From: Favolaschia claudopus
Lineage: Eukaryota; Basidiomycota; Agaricomycetes; Agaricales; Mycenaceae
Assembly: GCA_037176885.1 (NCBI GenBank)
Contig: JAWWNJ010000033.1
Coordinates: 248,001 to 312,000 of the forward strand
Direction of reading: 5' to 3'
Length of the DNA stretch: 64,000 nt
The notes beneath the pieces are model-generated. The model was not told where the DNA came from. It saw only the letters and a program-made list of their open reading frames with translations, and made no database searches. The translations under genes and the position numbers were made by a program. Of this stretch, positions 16,643-47,441 are shown piece by piece; the stretch's first letter is position 1; each line of letters begins with the position of its first letter.

Positions 16643-17287
16643 ATCTGCCAAGGGCGATAAACATTGCCTTATACATGGACAAAACAAATCCCATACTTCC
16701 GATAACTGCTATCAGTTGAAGAATCTAGCGCAGGGATCAAAGGACTCCAAGAAGAATGACAAGCAGAAGTCTGAGAAAGCGAGACCTAGAAAGCGCCGTG
16801 ACAAGGCAAATGCCTCTGCTACTACAGATTCTGAATCTGATTCCGATGACTCTGAACATGGACATTTAGCTGTACCTGTTGTTTCCCAGAAATCTTATGC
16901 TGCTATGTCTGCTTATCTTTTGAGTGATGCAAACCCTTCATCCAAAGCTGTGGTAATTGACTCTGGAGCTTCTACCACCATGACACCAAATGAGGCATGG
17001 TTTGAGACAGGTTCTTATAAAGTACTCACTCCACCAAAAAGGGTGCGGCTTGGTAATGATACATATTGTGATGCAGTTGGAACTGGAACCATCCGTCTAT
17101 CTTGCAAAACAAAGCGAGGGATGTCTGATGTCTCTCTACGTGCATTACATGTCCCATCCTTTGGTATCACACTTGTCTCAGTGCAACAAATGGCTAAAAA
17201 GGGATACAATTGCATGTTCGAAGCAGATGTCTGCATTGTTCGAAACCCAAAAGGGCAAAGAATGATTGAAGCCAAGCATCGGAAGGG

Positions 17288-17472
17288 TGTAAGGGGAGAA
17301 GGGCCCAGGAGCCAAGTCGATAACAAACCTGGGGATCAGAGATCCCCAGCGGACTACTTATATACAAGAGGTGACGTAAGATATGACATAAGTGAGCACA
17401 CAGCATGATGTCTTGGAGACAGAGAACTTCTGCCCAAGTCAAAGGACGTCATAGCTGTGGAGTCCCCTGACA
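17288..17472 (-). repeat. 3' LTR of KH element copy 1
   Basis: 185 bp, TGTAAGGGGA...CCCCTGACA on the plus strand. It carries the complement of the TATA box and the R/U5 segment found in copy 2. Confidence 0.9.
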
Positions 17473-17535
17473 TCACCCCCTCTGCAAGATTCGTCGCCTC
17501 GACGAAGACCAAAGCCCAGTAGAATGAACGATCTT

Positions 17536-18582
17536 TCAAAATCCTGGATCGCCACGGAAGAGTAGGTTGCCCTGGGAGTCAATCCGCGAATCTGACGCAG
17601 ACACTGCACCACCTCGCCGTGCCGTCTGTGGTCGACGCCCCCTTTCAGGTCGAATAGCATCAATGGCCATAGGCGAAGGAGCTACTGAACGTGGAGAGGG
17701 GGACGGGACGGCAGTGGGCATGGCCACCGAGGGGGCATAAGGAGTAGAGCTGGGGCGGGGAGTAGGAATTGGGGACGTCATTACCTGCGTAGGAATAGAG
17801 ATGATGGCAGGGTTATGGGGTAGGGAGTGAGAGGCGGGGTAGGAAGACTCCTGTGGTGCAAATCGCACCCCAGACTTCCTTGGCTGTGTAGCGGCACCTG
17901 GGTGCGGCTGAGCACTGGCCGCTGGAGGGGGTGGAACCGGAGCCGGTGGCTGAGACGGATGGACGGGGTGTGCGCGCTTCTTCAGCGGGCGAGCGCCCTC
18001 GCCAGAAGCGTTCGGCAAAACTGGCACCGGGCCAGGAGGGGGAGGGGCAGGGTCCCCGGAAAGGCGTGACGGACCTTTCTTCTTAGAGCGGATACGCTTA
18101 CGCATGAAACGCTTCCCAAGCGCAATTAGCGCTTCACCGATTTGCTGGTCGGTACCACGGATAGATACACGGCGCTCCAAGGGGGAAGCCTTATCAGTAT
18201 AGGCTCGAAGTTGGGCGCCGGAGATGTCGTGCGACTGATGAAGACCCTTACCACCACGGCCAACGATATGCCCGACGACCGAGTCAGGCACCACAAGCGT
18301 ACACGAGTAGCGGGACGGTGCGTCCTGTGCAGTAGGGAGGGTTTCGGCGAGTGGTATGGTGGTGTGGCCGACAGCGATGATGGCAGGGGTAGGGGCTGGG
18401 GTTGAAGGTTCAGAGCCCCAGCGAGCGCCATCCCAGGAGAAGCGCCAGGCATGCCCTCGGGGAGTAGAGGCTGCAGTGTCCCCAAACTCAAGACGATCAA
18501 GACGGTCGTGGACGCGCTGTAGTTCGCTTCGAAGGAGAGTGCAGTAGGAATAAAGGTCCTGAGGAACTGCGGGGGTTGCCAT
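17536..18582 (-). CDS. KH-domain Gag-like protein of the LTR element, copy 1
   Basis: An intact frame of 348 residues is the only gene of the element. Residues about 10-33 form a heptad-like helix (YCTLLRSELQRVHDRLDRLE). Residues about 92-160 are a KH RNA-binding domain: CTLVVPDSVVGHIVGRGGKG carries the GXXG loop (GRGG, 108-111), and later RRVSIRGTDQQIGEAL supplies the second half. A basic stretch (RKRIRSKKKG) follows, then a long Pro/Ser-rich tail. KH domains bind single-stranded RNA, so packaging of the element's RNA is a reasonable inference, but no CCHC knuckle or classical Gag motif is seen. It differs from copy 2 at seven residues by eye, and both frames are open. It could also be a captured host KH protein. 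Confidence 0.85.
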   Translation of the reverse strand: MATPAVPQDLYSYCTLLRSELQRVHDRLDRLEFGDTAASTPRGHAWRFSWDGARWGSEPSTPAPTPAIIAVGHTTIPLAETLPTAQDAPSRYSCTLVVPDSVVGHIVGRGGKGLHQSHDISGAQLRAYTDKASPLERRVSIRGTDQQIGEALIALGKRFMRKRIRSKKKGPSRLSGDPAPPPPGPVPVLPNASGEGARPLKKRAHPVHPSQPPAPVPPPPAASAQPHPGAATQPRKSGVRFAPQESSYPASHSLPHNPAIISIPTQVMTSPIPTPRPSSTPYAPSVAMPTAVPSPSPRSVAPSPMAIDAIRPERGRRPQTARRGGAVSASDSRIDSQGNLLFRGDPGF

Positions 18583-18687
18583 AGCAAGGGAGGTGTAAGG
18601 TCGATGGTAGGATGAGGGCAGAGTAGGAAGTAGGGTGGTCGGCTGGGGCTAGGAGAGTGCCAGAGTCGAATAGAAGGTTTGTTATGC

Positions 18688-18872
18688 TGTAAGGGGAGGA
18701 GGGCCCAGGAGCCAAGTCGATAACAAACCTGGGGATCAGAGATCCCCAGTGAACTACTTATATACAAGAGGTGACGTAAGATATGACATAAGTGAGCACA
18801 CAGCATGATGTCTTGGAGACAGAGAACTTCTGCCCAAGTCAAAGGACGTCATAGCTGTGGAGTCCCCTGACA
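18688..18872 (-). repeat. 5' LTR of KH element copy 1
   Basis: 185 bp, nearly identical to 17288-17472. The segment 18720-18730 is the complement of the putative transcript 5' end and matches the primer site at 18675-18685 in inverted orientation. Confidence 0.9.
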
Positions 18873-19487
18873 AAGGGACTGTACCACATTGTCTATACTC
18901 CTTTGAGTGAAGATCCACATGCACTATTTGCTATGGATATCAATCATCTTCATCGAATATCTGGTCATACAAATTTCCAACTATTACAGAAATCTGTTGC
19001 TAAAGGCCGACTTGGTGAAATTACATCCTTGACAGGAATCCCCAAATTCTGTGAACCCTGTGTTCTTGGGAAAATGAAGAAATTACCATTTTCCAAAAGT
19101 CAAACCAAAGCTCGTGGTCCTTTAGATATTGTATCATCTGATGTTGGTGGTCCAGTAACACCTGAAGGCCCCGGTGGAATACGCTACTGGGTGGTCCTTA
19201 TAGATCATCATTCCTCTGAGGTGTGGATTCTATTTGCCCAAAAGAAATCCCAAGTCTATTCAAAACTCAAAGAATGGCGAAAATCTACTGAGGCTCATTT
19301 TCGTGCTCAAATTGCTAATTGGGAATTCTGTGAGGGCTGGACTCGATTCTTTCGCACAGATGGGGGTGGTGAATTCACGTCTCATCAAATGGAAACAGAA
19401 TTCAAACGTCTAGGCATCATCCATGAAACAACAGCACCTTACACTCCAGAGCAAAACGGAGTAGCAGAGCGAATGAATCAACGGGTA

Positions 19488-22176: not shown

Positions 22177-22592
22177 CTAGTTGCCTGTACCAAGAGAGGA
22201 CACAATGTTCCCTTTAATGCCTGTCCAGTAGCTATCATCTGGTAGAGTGCTGAGAAGAATGAGAGGCTGAAGCTCGGGGGGAAATGGAAATTCCAGGCGT
22301 GCAAGCCTATCAAAACAGGTCTTGATAGCAGCTACATGAGAAAGAATCTTGTTGCGATCCATGAGCTCTGGTTCGCCTTCAATAACGAGCTTGGTGCTAA
22401 AAAGTTCTGCTAGAACACCCATTGCGGAATCGGCACGATTTTTTGCTTCAAAGCGCTGGCGCAGTTTGGCCCAGAGAATTCCAGCATTAGATTCGTTGAC
22501 ATACTCTGTGTGCAGTTCTGCTGAAAGAAGCTTCTGAATGACACCTAAAGCACGGCTATTACGTTCGCCAGGGGTATCCTTGAAAGCTACGC

Positions 22593-22777
22593 TGTCAGGG
22601 GATTCCACAGCTATGACATCTTCTGACTTGGGCAGAAGTTCTCTGTCTCCAAGACATCATGCTGTGTGCTCACTTATGTCATATCTTACGTCACCTCTTG
22701 TATATAAGTAGTTCACTGGGGATCTCTGATCCCCAGGTTTGTTATCGACTTGGCTCCTGGGCCCTCCTCCCCTTACA
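22593..22777 (+). repeat. 5' LTR of KH element copy 2
   Basis: 185 bp, TGTCAGGGGA...CCTTACA. It contains a TATA box at 22701 and, 34 bp downstream, AGGTTTGTTAT (22735-22745), the complement of the primer site. Confidence 0.9.
22701..22708 (+). promoter_or_regulatory. TATA box of the KH element
   Basis: TATATAAG lies inside the LTR. A start about 30-35 bp downstream would place the RNA 5' end at or next to 22735, exactly where the self-complementary 11-mer begins. The same box is present in all four LTRs. Confidence 0.6.
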
Positions 22778-22779
22778 GC

Positions 22780-22790
22780 ATAACAAACCT
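22780..22790 (+). other. Putative primer-binding site, self-complementary to the RNA 5' end
   Basis: ATAACAAACCT lies two bases after the 5' LTR and is the exact reverse complement of AGGTTTGTTAT at 22735-22745 within the LTR. The same pair is conserved in copy 1 (18675-18685 and 18720-18730). Tf1-type elements prime reverse transcription with the first 11 nt of their own RNA, and this geometry is what that mechanism needs. Confidence 0.65.
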
Positions 22791-22882
22791 TCTATTCGAC
22801 TCTGGCACTCTCCTAGCCCCAGCCGACCACCCTACTTCCTACTCTGCCCTCATCCTACCATCGACCTTACACCTCCCTTGCT

Positions 22883-23929
22883 ATGGCAACCCCCGCAGTT
22901 CCTCAGGACCTTTATTCCTACTGCACTCTCCTTCGAAGCGAACTACAGCGCGTCCACGACCGTCTTGATCGTCTTGAGTTTGGGGACACTGCAGCCTCTA
23001 CTCCCCGAGGGCATGCCTGGCGCTTCTCCTGGGATGGCGCTCGCTGGGGCTCTGAACCATCAACCCCAGCCCCTACCCCTGCCATCATCGCTGTCGGCCA
23101 CACCGCCATACCACTCGCCGAAACCCTCCCTACTGCACAGGACGCACCGTCCCGCTACTCGTGTACGCTTGTGGTGCCTGACTCGGTCGTCGGGCATATC
23201 GTTGGCCGTGGTGGTAAGGGTCTTCATCAGTCGCACGACATCTCCGGCGCCCAACTTCGAGCCTATACTGATAAGGCTTCCCCCTTGGAGCGCCGTGTAT
23301 CTATCCGTGGTACCGACCAGCAAATCGGTGAAGCGCTAATTGCGCTTGGGAAGCGTTTCATGCGTAAGCGTATCCGCTCTAAGAAGAAAGGTCCGTCACG
23401 CCTTTCCGGGGACCCTGCCCCTCCCCCTCCTGGCCCGGTGCCAGTTTTGCCGAACGCTTCTGGCGAGGGCGCTCGCCCGCTGAAGAAGCGCGCACACCCC
23501 GTCCATCCGTCTCAGCCACCGGCTCCGGTTCCACCCCCTCCAGCGGCCAGTGCTCAGCCGCACCCAGGTGCCGCTACACAGCCAAGGAAGTCTGGGGTGC
23601 GATTTGCACCACAGGAGTCTTCCTACCCCGCCTCTAACTCCCTACCCCATAACCCTGCCGCCATCTCTATTCCTACGCAGGTAATGGCGTCCCCTATTCC
23701 TACTCCCCGCCCCAGCTCTACTCCTTATGCCCCCTCGGTGGCCATGCCCACTGCCATCCCGTCCCCCTCTCCACGTTCAGGTGCTCCTTCGCCTATGGCC
23801 ATTGATGCTATTCGACCTGAAAGGGGACGTCGACAACAGACGGCACGGCGAGGCGGTGCAGTGTCTGCGTCTGATTCGCGGATTGACTCCCAGGGCAACC
23901 TACTCTTCCGTGGCGATCCAGGATTTTGA
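22883..23929 (+). CDS. KH-domain Gag-like protein of the LTR element, copy 2
   Basis: 348 residues, starting at the first ATG about 105 bp after the LTR. The architecture matches copy 1: N-terminal helix, KH domain with GRGG at 108-111, basic patch at 160-169 (MRKRIRSKKK) and a Pro-rich tail ending SQGNLLFRGDPGF. Differences from copy 1 are mostly conservative (for example T75A, V-to-I and H-to-N changes in the tail). No stop or frame break is present, unlike most frames in this window. An RNA-binding structural role in a particle is inferred from the KH fold and the element context. The first 50 residues could mediate oligomerisation. Confidence 0.85.
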   Translation: MATPAVPQDLYSYCTLLRSELQRVHDRLDRLEFGDTAASTPRGHAWRFSWDGARWGSEPSTPAPTPAIIAVGHTAIPLAETLPTAQDAPSRYSCTLVVPDSVVGHIVGRGGKGLHQSHDISGAQLRAYTDKASPLERRVSIRGTDQQIGEALIALGKRFMRKRIRSKKKGPSRLSGDPAPPPPGPVPVLPNASGEGARPLKKRAHPVHPSQPPAPVPPPPAASAQPHPGAATQPRKSGVRFAPQESSYPASNSLPHNPAAISIPTQVMASPIPTPRPSSTPYAPSVAMPTAIPSPSPRSGAPSPMAIDAIRPERGRRQQTARRGGAVSASDSRIDSQGNLLFRGDPGF

Positions 23930-23980
23930 AGGATCGTTCATTCTACGGGGCTCTGGTCTTCGTCGAGGCGACGAATCTTG

Positions 23981-23992
23981 AAGAGGGGGTGA
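23981..23992 (+). other. Polypurine tract of KH element copy 2
   Basis: AAGAGGGGGTGA directly precedes the 3' LTR, as needed for plus-strand DNA priming. The equivalent tract is present in copy 1. Confidence 0.75.
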
Positions 23993-24224
23993 TGTCAGGG
24001 GATTCCACAGCTATGACATCTTCTGACTTGGGCAGAAGTTCTCTGTCTCCAAGACATCATGCTGTGTGCTCACTTATGTCATATCTTACGTCACCTCTTG
24101 TATATAAGTAGTTCACTGGGGATCTCTGATCCCCAGGTTTGTTATCGACTTGGCTCCTGGGCCCTTCTCCCAGAGATCCCCAGGTTTGTTATCGACTTGG
24201 CTCCTGGGCCCTCCTCCCCTTACA
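23993..24224 (+). repeat. 3' LTR of KH element copy 2 with internal duplication
   Basis: 232 bp. Relative to the 185-bp 5' LTR it carries an extra 47-bp tandem copy of the segment from GATCCCCAGG to GGGCCCTTCTCC (about 24130-24224). Confidence 0.85.
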
Positions 24225-24615
24225 TACGCCAGCAACAGGAGCTGCGGCAGGCAGAGGAGTAACAGCAGCAGCAGCAACAGTGGCATCAGCTGCATTTGCA
24301 GCGAGGATAACAGATTCAAGCAGAGTGTAGACTCCCTGTAGGCGCAGTTCCACTGTAGCATTAACATGAAAAATTGGCCAGTCTTCTGCTCCGGAAAGCT
24401 CAGAAGAAGCCGAGTTTGCCGCAGTTGACATTATGTGAGAAGTCCGAGGTGAGATAACCAGAGTCCGAGGGAATTTCGGCAACAGGTCGTGGGATTGATT
24501 GATTGATACAAGTCTGTGCTTGTGATGCTTCGAGCTCTGATGAGCGAGCAGGTGAGTCTTCCAATAGGTACGTCTTCAGAGAGCTAGCGCTCGGTGGCCC
24601 ATAACCTAACAGAAT

Positions 24616-26849: not shown

Positions 26850-27128
26850 GCTGGAAGGTCGAGAGCGCTGTGTGGGTTACGGTTTTTGACATAGACTGTC
26901 AGGGGAAGTCCCTCTTTTGGCACTACACAGCCACCTATGACGCAGGCCTCCTGCAGATTTCCCACTTTCCCGCAAGAGGTGACCGATCTCTGCATCGTTC
27001 AATTTGATCTGTAAATACGCGAGATCAATGATCGATGCCGGATCCGCGGAACAACACGTCCCGGAGCCCGGACCGCGTAGTCTGCAGCTTTCTTTTCTCC
27101 TTCCTTCGTGTCGCAAAGCCTATATACA
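26850..27128. other. No recognisable gene
   Basis: Short open frames on both strands show no domain. The minus strand leads into the zinc-finger frame at 27129-27506. Confidence 0.35.
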
Positions 27129-38100: not shown

Positions 38101-41100
38101 TTGCCGTCTTCAGAACAAATCGAATCGGACGTACCTTTGAACGATGCTTCAAATGCTTCGGAAACTTCCTGTGGAAGTTATTATTCGAAGCCTTCGTTGA
38201 ATCGAAGATCTAGACGCCGTCTTGCTAGAGAAATAAAGGCCGTGAATTATCGAGTAATTCATACGGATGCGCGAGTCGCAGAACAACAGCCTTTGATTGA
38301 ATTGCGGAAGCATATGGCAAGGCCGGCGGGCTCTTCATTCCTTGGTTCCCTTGCTACTGAAGCCACTGCTACGATTGGAGGCCTAGAAACGGATCCTGTT
38401 CAAGTTATCATCGACTCTGGATCAGACATTACCTTGATCTCGCGAAGCACTCTTGATTCACTCACCCATCCCCGAAAGTAAAGTCAGGTCACGATGTGAA
38501 ATTGATCCAGGTAACAGGACGTTCGTCTATATCTGGATACGTTAATGTCGATTTGTACTTCCATACAAACGAGGGACCGGTGAAATTGAATGTTGAAGCA
38601 TATGTTGTTAGCGGTATGTCAACTCCGTTCATCCTAGGCAATGATTTTGCGGATCAGTATTCAATTTCTATAGTCAGAGAGGAAGGGAATACCTACTTGC
38701 GCTTCGGAAGTTCTGGGCGTCAATTGAAGGTTGAATCTTCGACTTCACCGAGTTTATTGGATGACGAAGGCCATGCCTTCAAAGTCAAAGTTCAATCTGA
38801 AGTAAAGCATTCTGGATCTTCGAAAGGAGTTCATCGTCGAAATCAGAAGCTAAAACGACGGGCTCATCAGCGTCAAAGAAATGCCGAAGTTTGGGCAACT
38901 GAACGTACTGTTATTGCCCCGGAATCAAGTAAAATTGTTCCAGTCGGTGCAAACTTTCCTAAAAATCAAGACTCGCTTTTTGTGGAAGAAAAATAGCTTC
39001 AAATGGCAATGAAGACGATTTTTATGGCGCTGCTGATACTCTCATTTCAAAGGAAAAACCGGTACTTCATGTTGCGAACTTTTCAAAGATGCCTGTAGTC
39101 ATTGCGGCTGGTCAAGTGCTTGGTACTGCCCGTAATCCGAAGTCCTGGCTAGACAAATTGAATAAGTTTAGTCCAGCACAGCAGCAGAAGATTAATGCTC
39201 ATGCTCACCTTATCCGCACACTTGTTGCTGAGCAGTCTGGCGAATCGACGGTGGTGGACGGAGGCAAAAGTGAGAATGATTGCCGACCGGAGACAGCGGG
39301 ATCTTCACCGGTGGCAGTACCTGTCATGCCGTCACCTCATCTCTCTTGCGCTGTGCGCTCAGAGACGGAAATTGCATCGAAGGCTCAACGCAATGCAACA
39401 GAACCAGACGATCCGCTGGCGGAAGAACCCCTAGAAGGTGGACCAAACACTGCTGAAGTTCCTCCAGAACCGGTGAGTTCGGCACAACTGCTGACAGAAA
39501 TCGACATCTCACCAGATGTTACGCCGGAGCAGCGGAAGCAGCTCGAAGAGGTTCTCATACGCAATAGTTCAGCATTCGGACTTGACGGTAGATTGGGAAA
39601 TTATGAAACAAAGGTTGAGATACCAATGAAGCCTGGTGCGGAAACCTGTATCTCTACCCCCGTTTCCCGTTTCTCCTGCTAACCGAGAAGTTATTGATAA
39701 ACAGATGGATTCTTGGCTCAAATTGGGTGTTATTGAACCATCTAAGAGTCCATGGGCTGCGCCCGTGTTTATTGTATATCGGAATGGTAAACCCCGAATG
39801 GTTATCGACCTTAGGAAATTAAACGAACAAGTTGTTGCAGACGAATTCGGTTTACCTCGTCAAGACGAGATTCTTCAAGCCTTATCTGGCTCTCAGTGGC
39901 TCACCACTCTCGACGCTCTCGCTGGATTCACTCAACTCACCATGGCGCCTGGTTCCGCTGAAAAACTCGCGTTCCGAACACATCGCGGACTTTTTCAATT
40001 CGCGCGAATGCCCTTTGGCTATCGAAACGGCCCCAGCGTCTTTCAACGCGTGATGCAGACGGTGCTGGCGCCATTCCTCTGGATTTTTGCACTAGTCTAC
40101 ATCGACGACATCGTGGTTTTCTCGCTCACCTTCGAAGACCACGTCAAACACCTCGACCTTGTCTTTGGCGCCATCGCCGCCGCCAACATTACCCTCTCCC
40201 CTCCGAAATGCCATCTGGCGTATCAATCACTACTACTGCTTGGTCAGAAGGTATCGCGCCTCGGTCTTTCTACTCATAAAGAAAAGGTTGACGCGATCCT
40301 TCAGCTTGCCGAACCGCGCAACACCCACGAACTTCAAACTTTTCTAGGAATGATGGTTTACTTCGCTGGGTATGTTCCATTCTTTGCCTGGATCGCGCAG
40401 CCTTTATTTGAGCTGTTGAAGAAGGGTGTAAAATGGAATTGGAACGAACTTCATCGTGAGGCTTTCGAGCTAAGTAAACAAGTTCTAACTAATGCACCGG
40501 TTCGCGGATACGCCATTGCAGGGAAACCATACCGTGTCTACACTGACGCGTGTGATTACGCACTCGCCGGAATCTGTCAACAAGTTCAACCGGTTCAAAT
40601 TCACGACCTTCGCGGTACTCGGTTGTATGAACGACTTGAACGCGCCTATAAAAACGGTGAGGACGTGCCAACTCTAGTTACAGTGATCAAAGGCATTGAC
40701 GATGTTCCAACGCCCGGTCCGTGGGCTGAGAATTTCGAAGATACTACAGTTCACGTCGAACGCGTCATTTGCTACTGGTCTCGGGTCCTCAAATCCCCGG
40801 AACGCAATTACTCGCCAACCGAACGCGAAGCCCTCGCTCTCAAGGAGGCACTCATTAAATTTCAACCATTCCTCGAAGGCGAGTCTATTGCTGGCATTAC
40901 CGACCATGCCGCGTTGACCTGGAGCCGAACATTCCAGAATGTTAACCGCCGCCTTCTCACATGGGGCACGATATTTGCGGCGTACCCCGGACTCAAAATC
41001 GTGCATCGTCCCCAAAGCTGGCCGCGTCCACTCAAACGTTGATCCGATCTCCCGACTTCGTCGTCGAGTCCCGCCTCAAGACAGTCCGAGTACGGAACAT

Positions 41101-42900
41101 ATTCCTATGTTAAACCTGACTGATTGTGATCCTCTCAAGAATATGTATGACGATTTGGGGCCTCGTTTAGAAGAGAAATTGCTTAACTTGGCAACGAAGG
41201 TTGTACGCACTGAGCAGGATTCAGGAACACCGGACATAGTCTCCGTTGGTGGGATTTCATTGGATCATGACGAGGAAGTCACTTCACTCTATACCACGGC
41301 CCGTTCTTATGCCGTATTAATAGGAATTTCAAAGGACGAAATCACAGAGTGGGCCGCAGCATACCAAGAAGACCCTCATTTTTCTAGGGTACTTCAGGGT
41401 TGGAAATCGGAGAAGGACTGGTCCAATCCTCTCTACCCACAGTATCATTACAGGGACAATGGATTGATCTTTTTCGAAGACTGGCAAGGTCTAAGTCGCC
41501 TCTGCGTTCCTGCAAGATTCCGCACCTCAATCATGGCCGAAATTCACGATACTCCCACAGAATCGGCCCACGCCGGCTACCATCGCTGTTATAATCGAAT
41601 TGCCGCAACTTATTACTGGCCTCGGATGTCGCGCGACGTTTAAACGCTACACTTCAACCTGCGATATTTGTCAAAAGAGTAAGCCTCGACGGCACGCTGG
41701 CATCGGCCTACTCCAACCCATTCCTATTCCAACACGCCCGTTCGAAGTCGTCTCAATGGACTTCATTCCCGAATTACCAAACTCAAACGGCTTTGATAAT
41801 GTTCTAGTGATCGTTGATAAGCTCACGAAATATGGTATATTCATTCCTTGCTCCGTAAAGATTTCTGAGGTGGAAACGGCTCAACTGTTTTTCAAGCATG
41901 TTGTGACGCACTTCGGTCTTCCGCGCCAAGTCATTACCGACCGCGACACTCGCTGGAAAAATGATTTTTGGGCGGAAATCTGCCGCCTGATGGAATGAAA
42001 CGAGCATTGACCACAGCTTACCATCCGCAAGCAGACGGACAGACTGAGATCCTCAATCAGACTTTAGAAATAGCACTGCGCGCTTATATTGGTCCATCAC
42101 GGGATGATTGGGCCAATTATCTGGATGCTCTGGCTCTATCCTACAATACGACAACACATTCTAGCTCAGGATTCACACCGGCATACTTGCTCTATGGCTT
42201 CCATCCAGTGACCGGAAGCTCTATGATTTTACCTGGTGACTCTATTCCACGTCCCATCGAATCCGTCGGCGAAACTGGTGGGGGAGATACTCCATTGGTA
42301 CGCAACGAAAAGGCCCAAAATTTCGCCGACGAATTTGAAACTTACCGCAGTCGCGCCAAGGAAGCTCTCCTTCTGGCTCAAATTTGGCAACGACACACTT
42401 ACAACAACGGACGCCTTCAAACTGAATTTGAGGAAGGTGACCTTGTTGTTCTTAATCCGCACTCACTCAAACTCTTACGCGATGAAAAAGGACGCGGTAA
42501 GAAGCTGCTCATGAAGTATGACGGTCCTTTTGAAATCATTCGAAAACTATCACCTGTCACCTACCAACTTCGACTTCCGGTCTCATACGGACTTCATCCA
42601 GTCCTGAACATTGCACATCTCGAATCGTATCGCAAATCCACTGATGATCTTGGCACAGATCGGCCCGCTAAGTCTCTTAATAGTGAGGACTTTGATTCCA
42701 AGCCCGAAGTAGGAATTGAAAGAATTCTCGCCGAACGCTGGCGGAAAATACGTGGCCGTAGAGTTCAACAATTCAAGGTACGATGGGAGGGATTTGACTC
42801 TGACCACGATGAATGGCTAACTAAACGAGCACTTCGTAATGCTCCCGCTATCCTCGAAGACTGGTCAAATTCAAATAAAGTGGAGACACCAAGTGCTTAG
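38101..42900 (+). pseudogene. Chromovirus pol: protease, RT, RNase H, integrase, chromodomain
   Basis: Protease: VQVIIDSGSDITLISRSTLD. RT (39636-41042): FRTHRGLFQFARMPFGYRNG, catalytic YIDDIVVFS. RNase H: YRVYTDACDYALAGICQ and the YSPTEREALALKEAL segment. Integrase: zinc region HAGYHRCYNRIAATYYWPRM with CDICQKSK. DDE core: D in VVSMDFIPELP, D in QVITDRDTRW, E in QADGQTEILNQTLE. The C-terminal chromodomain has IERILAERWRK, FKVRWEGFDSDHDEWL and RNAPAILEDW. Two of three aromatic cage positions (W, W) remain and the first is Val or Ile. Frame breaks occur near 38475, 38990, 39657, 41011, 41641 and 41993, nearly all within short homopolymers. The polyprotein is otherwise complete. Confidence 0.92.
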
Positions 42901-46697: not shown

Positions 46698-47441
46698 ATG
46701 ACCCACGTTCCCGACTCGCCCCCGACGCTCGCCAAGCTGTTAGAGCTCTTATCGAAGCTTATCGAGCTCATCTCTGCGTCGTTCCGCACTCCCGCTCCTG
46801 CACCACCGCCACGCCGTCCAGTCACGTGCAGTTATTGCAGTAGCCCCCGCCATCTTATCCGTCACTGCCCCCGCGTACTCGCCGACATCCGCAGCGGATT
46901 ATGCAAGCGTAATGCCCTTGGACGCGTTGTCCTTCCGTCTGGCTTATATGTCCCGCACACCGTCGTCGGTCCCAATCTCCGTGCTCGTTTCCTTGCACAC
47001 ACGCGTTCACAGCAGCTTCGGACGCCGCTCGTCGCGCGCCGTTCCGTTCCTACCGCCGCGCCGCGCCCTGTTCCCCCGTCCACAATTCCCTCTTCCTATA
47101 CGCCTTCTACAACGACATACCGCGCACCGATTATCTCGCCCACGCAGATTCCTGGCTACGCTCCGGCCCCTCGTTATGTTGTTCCCGGAATTTCCGACTC
47201 CTCGCATCGTAGTCCCAGCTCCATCGCCGTGATCGACGCCCCCACCGATCCCAAAGCTCCTGCGCATTTGCCGACCGCTACCAGCATTGAGGTTTCTTCG
47301 ACCGCTCCATCGCCACTGGCACCACCGCTTGATCCTCTTGAAGATGTCTTCCGCGAGCTTGCTCTGCTCCATCTTCACCCCGATCTGTTGCGTCTTTCAG
47401 CACTCGAGCATCGTATGGCTCAGCTCAGAGATTCGAGTTGA
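46698..47441 (+). CDS. CCHC Gag-like protein of the small LTR element
   Basis: 247 residues from an ATG at 46698. A short amphipathic helix (LAKLLELLSKLIELISASF) precedes a zinc knuckle CSYCSSPRHLIRHC (C44, C47, H52, C57; C-x2-C-x4-H-x4-C). After it comes LCKRNALGRVVLPSGLYVP, a continuation I associate with the C-terminal part of Gag in basidiomycete Ty3/gypsy elements. The rest is Pro/Ser-rich and ends with a leucine-rich helix (EDVFRELALLHLHPDLLRL). The usual capsid region is absent. It probably contributes RNA binding while other functions come from a full gypsy element. Confidence 0.7.
   Translation: MTHVPDSPPTLAKLLELLSKLIELISASFRTPAPAPPPRRPVTCSYCSSPRHLIRHCPRVLADIRSGLCKRNALGRVVLPSGLYVPHTVVGPNLRARFLAHTRSQQLRTPLVARRSVPTAAPRPVPPSTIPSSYTPSTTTYRAPIISPTQIPGYAPAPRYVVPGISDSSHRSPSSIAVIDAPTDPKAPAHLPTATSIEVSSTAPSPLAPPLDPLEDVFRELALLHLHPDLLRLSALEHRMAQLRDSS

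Follow-up and report, generated by a model that had tools for sequence, protein, structure and literature searches.

Two insertions of a small LTR retrotransposon encoding a KH protein

The 64,000-nucleotide stretch of Favolaschia claudopus DNA analysed here (hereafter the window, with positions counted from its first letter) carries two independent and clean insertions of one 1.6-kb long terminal repeat (LTR) retrotransposon, at 22593-24224 on the plus strand (copy 1) and at 17288-18872 on the minus strand (copy 2), each with a single intact open reading frame (ORF) for a 348-residue protein with a KH RNA-binding domain. The target site duplications (TSDs), purine tracts and LTRs (185 bp, 232 bp in one case) proposed in an initial annotation made from the sequence were confirmed. 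In copy 1, exact TSDs TACGC lie at 22588-22592 and 24225-24229, and the 185-bp 5′ LTR (22593-22777, TGTCAGGGGA...CCCCTTACA) includes TATATAA, a putative TATA box (22701-22707) that starts 34 nt before the putative RNA 5′ end, AGGTTTGTTAT (22735-22745), which would form the start of R and the self-primer. A leader rich in C (22778-22882; 45% C, 10% G) contains the primer-binding site (PBS) ATAACAAACCT at 22780-22790, 2 nt past the 5′ LTR, and is followed by the KH-protein ORF (22883-23929, 348 aa and stop), a polypurine tract (PPT), GAAGAGGGGGTGA, at 23980-23992 and, directly after it, the 232-bp 3′ LTR (23993-24224). Copy 2 shows the same order on the minus strand, with the 5′ LTR at 18688-18872 (self-primer at 18720-18730), the PBS at 18675-18685, the ORF at 17536-18582, the 3′ LTR at 17288-17472 and exact TSDs at 17283-17287 and 18873-18877 (AAGGG on the plus strand, CCCTT on the minus). 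Direct LTRs ending in TG..CA, a PBS after the 5′ LTR and a PPT before the 3′ LTR are all present. Both insertions are clean, since joining the flanks of each copy with one TSD dropped restores a single open frame across the junction, of 253 codons for copy 1 (137 and 117 for the separate sides) and 399 codons for copy 2 (199 and 200); by inspection, these flanking frames read like Copia gag/pol.

The extra length of the copy 1 3′ LTR consists of 47 bp repeating the U5-side end of the LTR, found on the 3′ side only (24172-24224), where the LTR restarts at a point 7 nt ahead of the predicted RNA start. In another copy in the genome (L050) the 3′ side extends over 355 bp and includes two adjoining LTR matches; both cases are perhaps template-switch products. 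A perfect inverted repeat, GGGGATC-TCT-GATCCCC (22718-22734), lies between the TATA box and the predicted RNA start. No Rfam family matched within 22400-24400, and no tRNA gene was found in the window by a tRNA search at the bacterial setting.

The two proteins, which the initial annotation had estimated to differ at about seven residues, differ at exactly 7, with the GRGG loop at residues 108-111, and share the order N-terminal helix, KH domain, basic patch and Pro-rich tail. The helix (residues 10-39, 22910-22999), modelled by AlphaFold2 with a predicted local distance difference test score (pLDDT) of 78-81 at residues 11-30 and 64 at residues 31-40, is a probable coiled coil. The domain at residues 91-161 (23153-23365) is a type I KH domain, with the beta-alpha-alpha-beta-beta-alpha fold and a GxxG loop, as supported both by the AlphaFold2 model and by a match to KH_1 (PF00013) at residues 94-153 (E 4.7e-6; 26.7 bits against a Pfam cut-off of 21.5). 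The KH domains of PCBP2 and hnRNP K rank near the top of the matches to residues about 87-161, by sequence and by fold, and the nearest KH folds are, according to their PDB titles, C-rich binders. As the annotation had also stated, the element lacks pol: KH_1 was the only Pfam match in the 348-aa ORF, with no reverse transcriptase, integrase or protease, and the other internal ORF of at least 150 aa (226 aa) overlaps the KH ORF in another frame and lay outside this Pfam search, which covered the 348-aa ORF.

Copy number, age and selection

As the initial annotation had proposed, the genome (a 264.6-Mb assembly in 460 contigs) was searched for further copies. The best match of the KH protein (99%; 60 member sequences) is itself annotated in Favolaschia claudopus. 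The primer-site pattern, allowing at most 2 mismatches, gave 157 genome-wide matches (84+73), fragments included, compared with 1+0 for the reversed pattern. A tblastn search, in which 116 of 1746 candidates were scored, returned 120 rows, of which, by manual count, 58 cover residues 1-348 without a stop (some perhaps allelic or from duplicate contigs), five contain one TGA and two several stops. After merging of identical flanks, 51 locus records were reduced to 28 distinct complete copies, 26 of them with exact 5-bp TSDs and all 28 with different upstream 5-mers. Independent TSDs, differing upstream 5-mers and the empty-site frames rule out a segmental duplication. LTR pairs are free of substitutions in 22 of the 28 copies (18 fully identical, four differing in length) and show 1 to 4 in the others; identity over 185 bp means recent insertion, although it does not resolve a date.

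Five other KH copies (L062, L064, L067, L068, L074) have a 3′ LTR complete to its end and are cut at differing internal points, as if they were unfinished reverse transcripts or had lost sequence later. Three loci (L056, L058, L059) consist of an LTR plus fragments of about 107 bp, all breaking at the ATG of the KH ORF; they were considered as carriers of another internal region, an idea rejected given that their sequences past the ATG are mutually dissimilar.

The annotation had suspected recent activity or selection, and both are borne out, the latter by the dN/dS comparison it had called for. Among the 25 of 28 copies with the ORF in register (three were set aside for internal length changes), the ORF is open in all 25, with a pN/pS of 0.38. 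Nonsynonymous changes account for 44 of all 79 polymorphisms (55.7 expected, P 0.003), for 13 of the 28 shared by at least two copies (19.2 expected, P 0.011) and for 31 of the 51 singletons (36.5 expected, P 0.06); the KH domain has no shared nonsynonymous change, but only one shared synonymous change too. Against a diverged copy, L093 (85% identical), dN/dS was 0.357 (bootstrap 0.24-0.54), with 0.195 in the N-terminal region, 0.071 in the KH domain and 0.633 in the tail, and against L094 it was 0.457 (0.30-0.69), with 0.202 in the KH domain. These sequence comparisons show purifying selection on the KH gene, and suggest that copies with a working KH protein left more offspring.

Proteins of the same layout occur in other Agaricales, in several genera, and in many environmental contigs with a median length of 1.6 kb. 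Profile scans of viral-contig and genome-contig collections found no relative, the sole viral-contig match (L055) being rejected as a chance match to what reads as a phage contig.

Probable self-priming and a resident chromovirus

The PBS exactly complements AGGTTTGTTAT in the element's own LTR over 11 nt, a length that none of 2000 LTR shuffles reached. All 28 complete copies retain an intact PBS and carry TATATAA in the 5′ LTR, and 27 have the AGGTTTGTTAT motif in both LTRs. No PBS of the tRNA type was recognised by eye, the site complementing the LTR itself instead, and the predicted RNA fold pairs the first 11 nt with the PBS. From this layout we infer self-priming of the Tf1 type from the predicted RNA 5′ end.

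A second search proposed by the annotation, for an autonomous relative with the same LTR ends, led to L092, a whole Ty3/gypsy chromovirus with identical 385-bp LTRs (TGTCAGGGGA...CCCTTACA). Its gag frame is open (Retrotrans_gag, 2e-7), as is its pol frame, which matches RVT_1, two RNase H models, Integrase_H2C2, SH3_Tf2-1 and Chromo, with rve below the cut-off. By eye, L092 has a zinc knuckle CX2CX3HX4C, whose spacing lacks one residue relative to the usual form; the Pfam knuckle model was unmatched in L092, though many relatives of L092 are listed with it. The KH element and the chromovirus have LTR ends and PPT end in common, the chromovirus counterpart of the PPT junction being, for example, GGGGGGGGTGA followed by TGTCAGGGGA. 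The L092-type PBS has 258 genome matches (control 0), and TGATGTCAGGGGAA, a combination of PPT end and LTR start that KH elements do not carry, has 331 (control 1). The frames at 16 of these TGATGTCAGGGGAA sites were read by eye: 14 have a chromovirus pol end and two (L078, L082) belong to a second satellite family, also represented by L061 (about 4 kb), with TGTCAGGGGA...CCCTTACA ends and a putative self-priming pair of its own. This family was read in one whole copy and two 3′ ends, none of which showed a long ORF. One of its solo LTRs, of 861 bp, lies inside a KH element (L075).

The PBS of L092, also at +2, complements 12 nt of its own LTR (reached by 1 of 2000 shuffles), and that of L061 complements 10 nt at the same offset (11 of 2000). 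The priming pairs of the three families thus differ in their letters and keep both complementarity and the +2 offset, complementarity kept despite differing letters being the expected mark of self-priming. A second chromovirus clade (C7) showed neither an LTR end nor a PBS within the stretch fetched. Tf1 and Tf2 are close relatives. As PMC4600332 recounts, Tf1 was the first element in which self-priming was demonstrated, and it has been proposed for Tj1 as well. The Tf1/Tj1/sushi-type chromoviruses, to which SH3_Tf2-1 and Chromo tie L092, share with the KH element the layout of its predicted self-priming and the 5-bp TSD (Tj1: PMC4600332); in contrast to them, the KH element lacks gag, protease, reverse transcriptase, integrase and chromodomain.

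The KH PPT/LTR-start pattern with at most 3 mismatches gave 508 matches (control 5), sister families included. An excess of 5′-truncated KH copies, considered on the basis of these 508 against the 157 PBS matches, was discarded: the comparison is void because sister-family sites fall within the allowed 3 mismatches (15 of 16 fetched), and the 508 include chromoviruses.

Within the window, an LTR start of the partner lineage lies at 26897-26970 on the plus strand (96% over 74 bp), matching the 3′ LTR starts of L079, L088 and L090. A different Ty3/gypsy element occupies 39642-42819, whose pol pieces share only about 29-40% identity with that of the partner, and a Pro-rich ORF at 46698-47441, with a zinc-knuckle-like CSYCSSPRHLIRHC motif recognised by eye, is possibly a retrotransposon Gag remnant.

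A probable coding satellite and the proposed role of its protein

Our analyses favour, with a probability of roughly 0.6, a non-autonomous protein-coding LTR element that depends, as a coding satellite, on a Tf1/sushi-like chromovirus resident in the genome and whose KH protein acts in cis to coat and favour its own C-rich RNA. Of this reading, the satellite component is well supported by the sequence evidence; the role of the protein in the element cycle is what we infer. The RNA would start at AGGTTTGTTAT, and its first 11 nt would fold back onto the PBS and prime minus-strand synthesis, with the chromovirus providing the enzymes (reverse transcriptase and integrase) as well as the particle. 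The KH protein would self-associate through its N-terminal helix and coat the C-rich RNA from which it was translated, gaining for that RNA a place in chromovirus particles, and would thus work more like LINE-1 ORF1p or a nucleocapsid than like a capsid Gag. In an element that depends on mobilisation in trans, selection on the protein implies a benefit conferred in cis; the C content of the leader (45%) and the C-rich ligands of the nearest KH folds make binding of the element's own RNA the simplest idea. LINE-1 ORF1p likewise combines a coiled coil with an RNA-binding domain and acts in cis; it differs in that the domain is an RRM rather than a KH fold, and in belonging to a non-LTR element whose polymerase is encoded in cis.

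Several observations weigh against this reading. Partnership with the chromovirus, which we consider likely, rests on shared termini, PPT end and priming layout because the LTR bodies share so little: their first 10 bp and, in inverted orientation, a 36-bp stretch (78%, E 0.002). No further family using the identical PBS came to light, a pattern that joins the KH PBS to a following non-KH base having 0 matches (2 for the reversed control). The second family, with no long ORF in the one whole copy and two 3′ ends read, suggests that mobilisation does not strictly require a protein. For the whole 166-nt leader, predicted stability is no better than that of shuffled sequences (z -0.19), 87 of 200 of which match or exceed it. 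Finally, the dN/dS values are biased downward, as the copies are mostly best protein matches and L093 and L094 were picked for their open frames.

Of the competing explanations, the one that fares best, albeit unlikely, retains the satellite and places the KH protein outside packaging, protecting the RNA from silencing or decay or assisting its export or translation. It explains the measured selection equally well, and its fold relatives PCBP and hnRNP K are regulators of RNA stability and translation. Nothing specific speaks against it; an N-terminal helix with an RNA-binding layout suits a ribonucleoprotein (RNP) coat at least equally.

We regard as improbable that the KH protein acts as a genuine structural Gag and builds its own particles, with only reverse transcriptase and integrase borrowed. 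Helix, basic region and Pro-rich tail recall the composition of many Gags, but no capsid-like fold was modelled, residues 170-328 lie nearly all below pLDDT 50, and no significant profile match to Gag emerged: KH_1 matched in 31 of 31 relatives and a Gag family in none at E 0.01, and hhalign comparison with the partner Gag gave matches of 15 or 26 columns at probabilities of 1.2 and 1.8%. These comparisons did not support the initial description of the protein as Gag-like. The KH-protein C-terminus and the partner Gag share a short PM-x-(V/I)-D motif followed by an Arg-rich stretch, at which both hhalign comparisons align without significance; derivation from Gag, considered from the resemblance of the tail SPM-x-(I/V)D..R to the partner's PMDVDR before its zinc knuckle, was dropped on these probabilities.

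Slightly less probable still is a captured host KH gene carried as a passenger without a role in the element cycle. KH is a common host domain and LTR elements can carry transduced host genes, but the 58 stop-free rows among the 120 listed, the dN/dS of 0.36 (0.07 in the KH domain) and the same-layout proteins of several genera and environmental contigs are difficult to reconcile with such a passenger. As to priming, chance complementarity with a tRNA or half-tRNA primer, as in other LTR elements, is very improbable: self-priming is read from sequence only, but a complement recurs at the same +2 offset, in different letters, in three families, and the partner pol matches SH3_Tf2-1, pointing to the relatives of Tf1, for which self-priming was first demonstrated (PMC4600332).

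TR-GAG and other gag-only LTR elements are non-autonomous, with one ORF that is a Gag, LTRs and no pol; the KH element shares this organization, except that its ORF codes for a KH protein with no significant profile match to Gag. Cellular PCBP2 and hnRNP K have several KH domains, whereas the protein of this mobile element has one. Terminal-repeat retrotransposons in miniature (TRIMs), reported from basidiomycetes in PMC5689174, are also small, with short LTRs and no pol, and presumably moved in trans; that paper calls them non-coding, whereas the KH element has a putative self-priming site and one conserved ORF under selection, open in all 25 in-register copies. Bdelloid LTR elements capture extra ORFs, as PMC5408684 relates, and neither that paper nor PMC4905642 mentions 'KH domain'. 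The statement of the initial annotation that it knew of no described LTR family with a KH Gag-like protein agrees with the open-licence literature (titles and abstract starts), in which none was found, Repbase and Dfam lying outside this search; literature naming a KH domain beside non-autonomous LTR retrotransposons did so for host proteins or in reference titles only. New here are the large young family, the match of the primer site to the predicted RNA 5′ end, the likely chromovirus partner, the selection and the relatives in other Agaricales.

More tentatively, and with somewhat less than even confidence, these elements may represent a class widespread in Agaricales, in which a KH RNP replaces the RNA-binding part of Gag, chromovirus enzymes are used, RNA is selected in cis and the self-priming pair drifts yet stays complementary. 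Non-autonomous LTR elements are usually viewed as lacking coding capacity or as remnants of Gag. A satellite with a selected RNA-binding gene would imply that parasites of retrotransposons compete for the machinery of their partner with proteins of their own. With a small, abundant element and its likely partner in the same genome, selection of RNA in cis becomes testable, as does the question of whether self-priming frees a parasite from copying the PBS of its partner.
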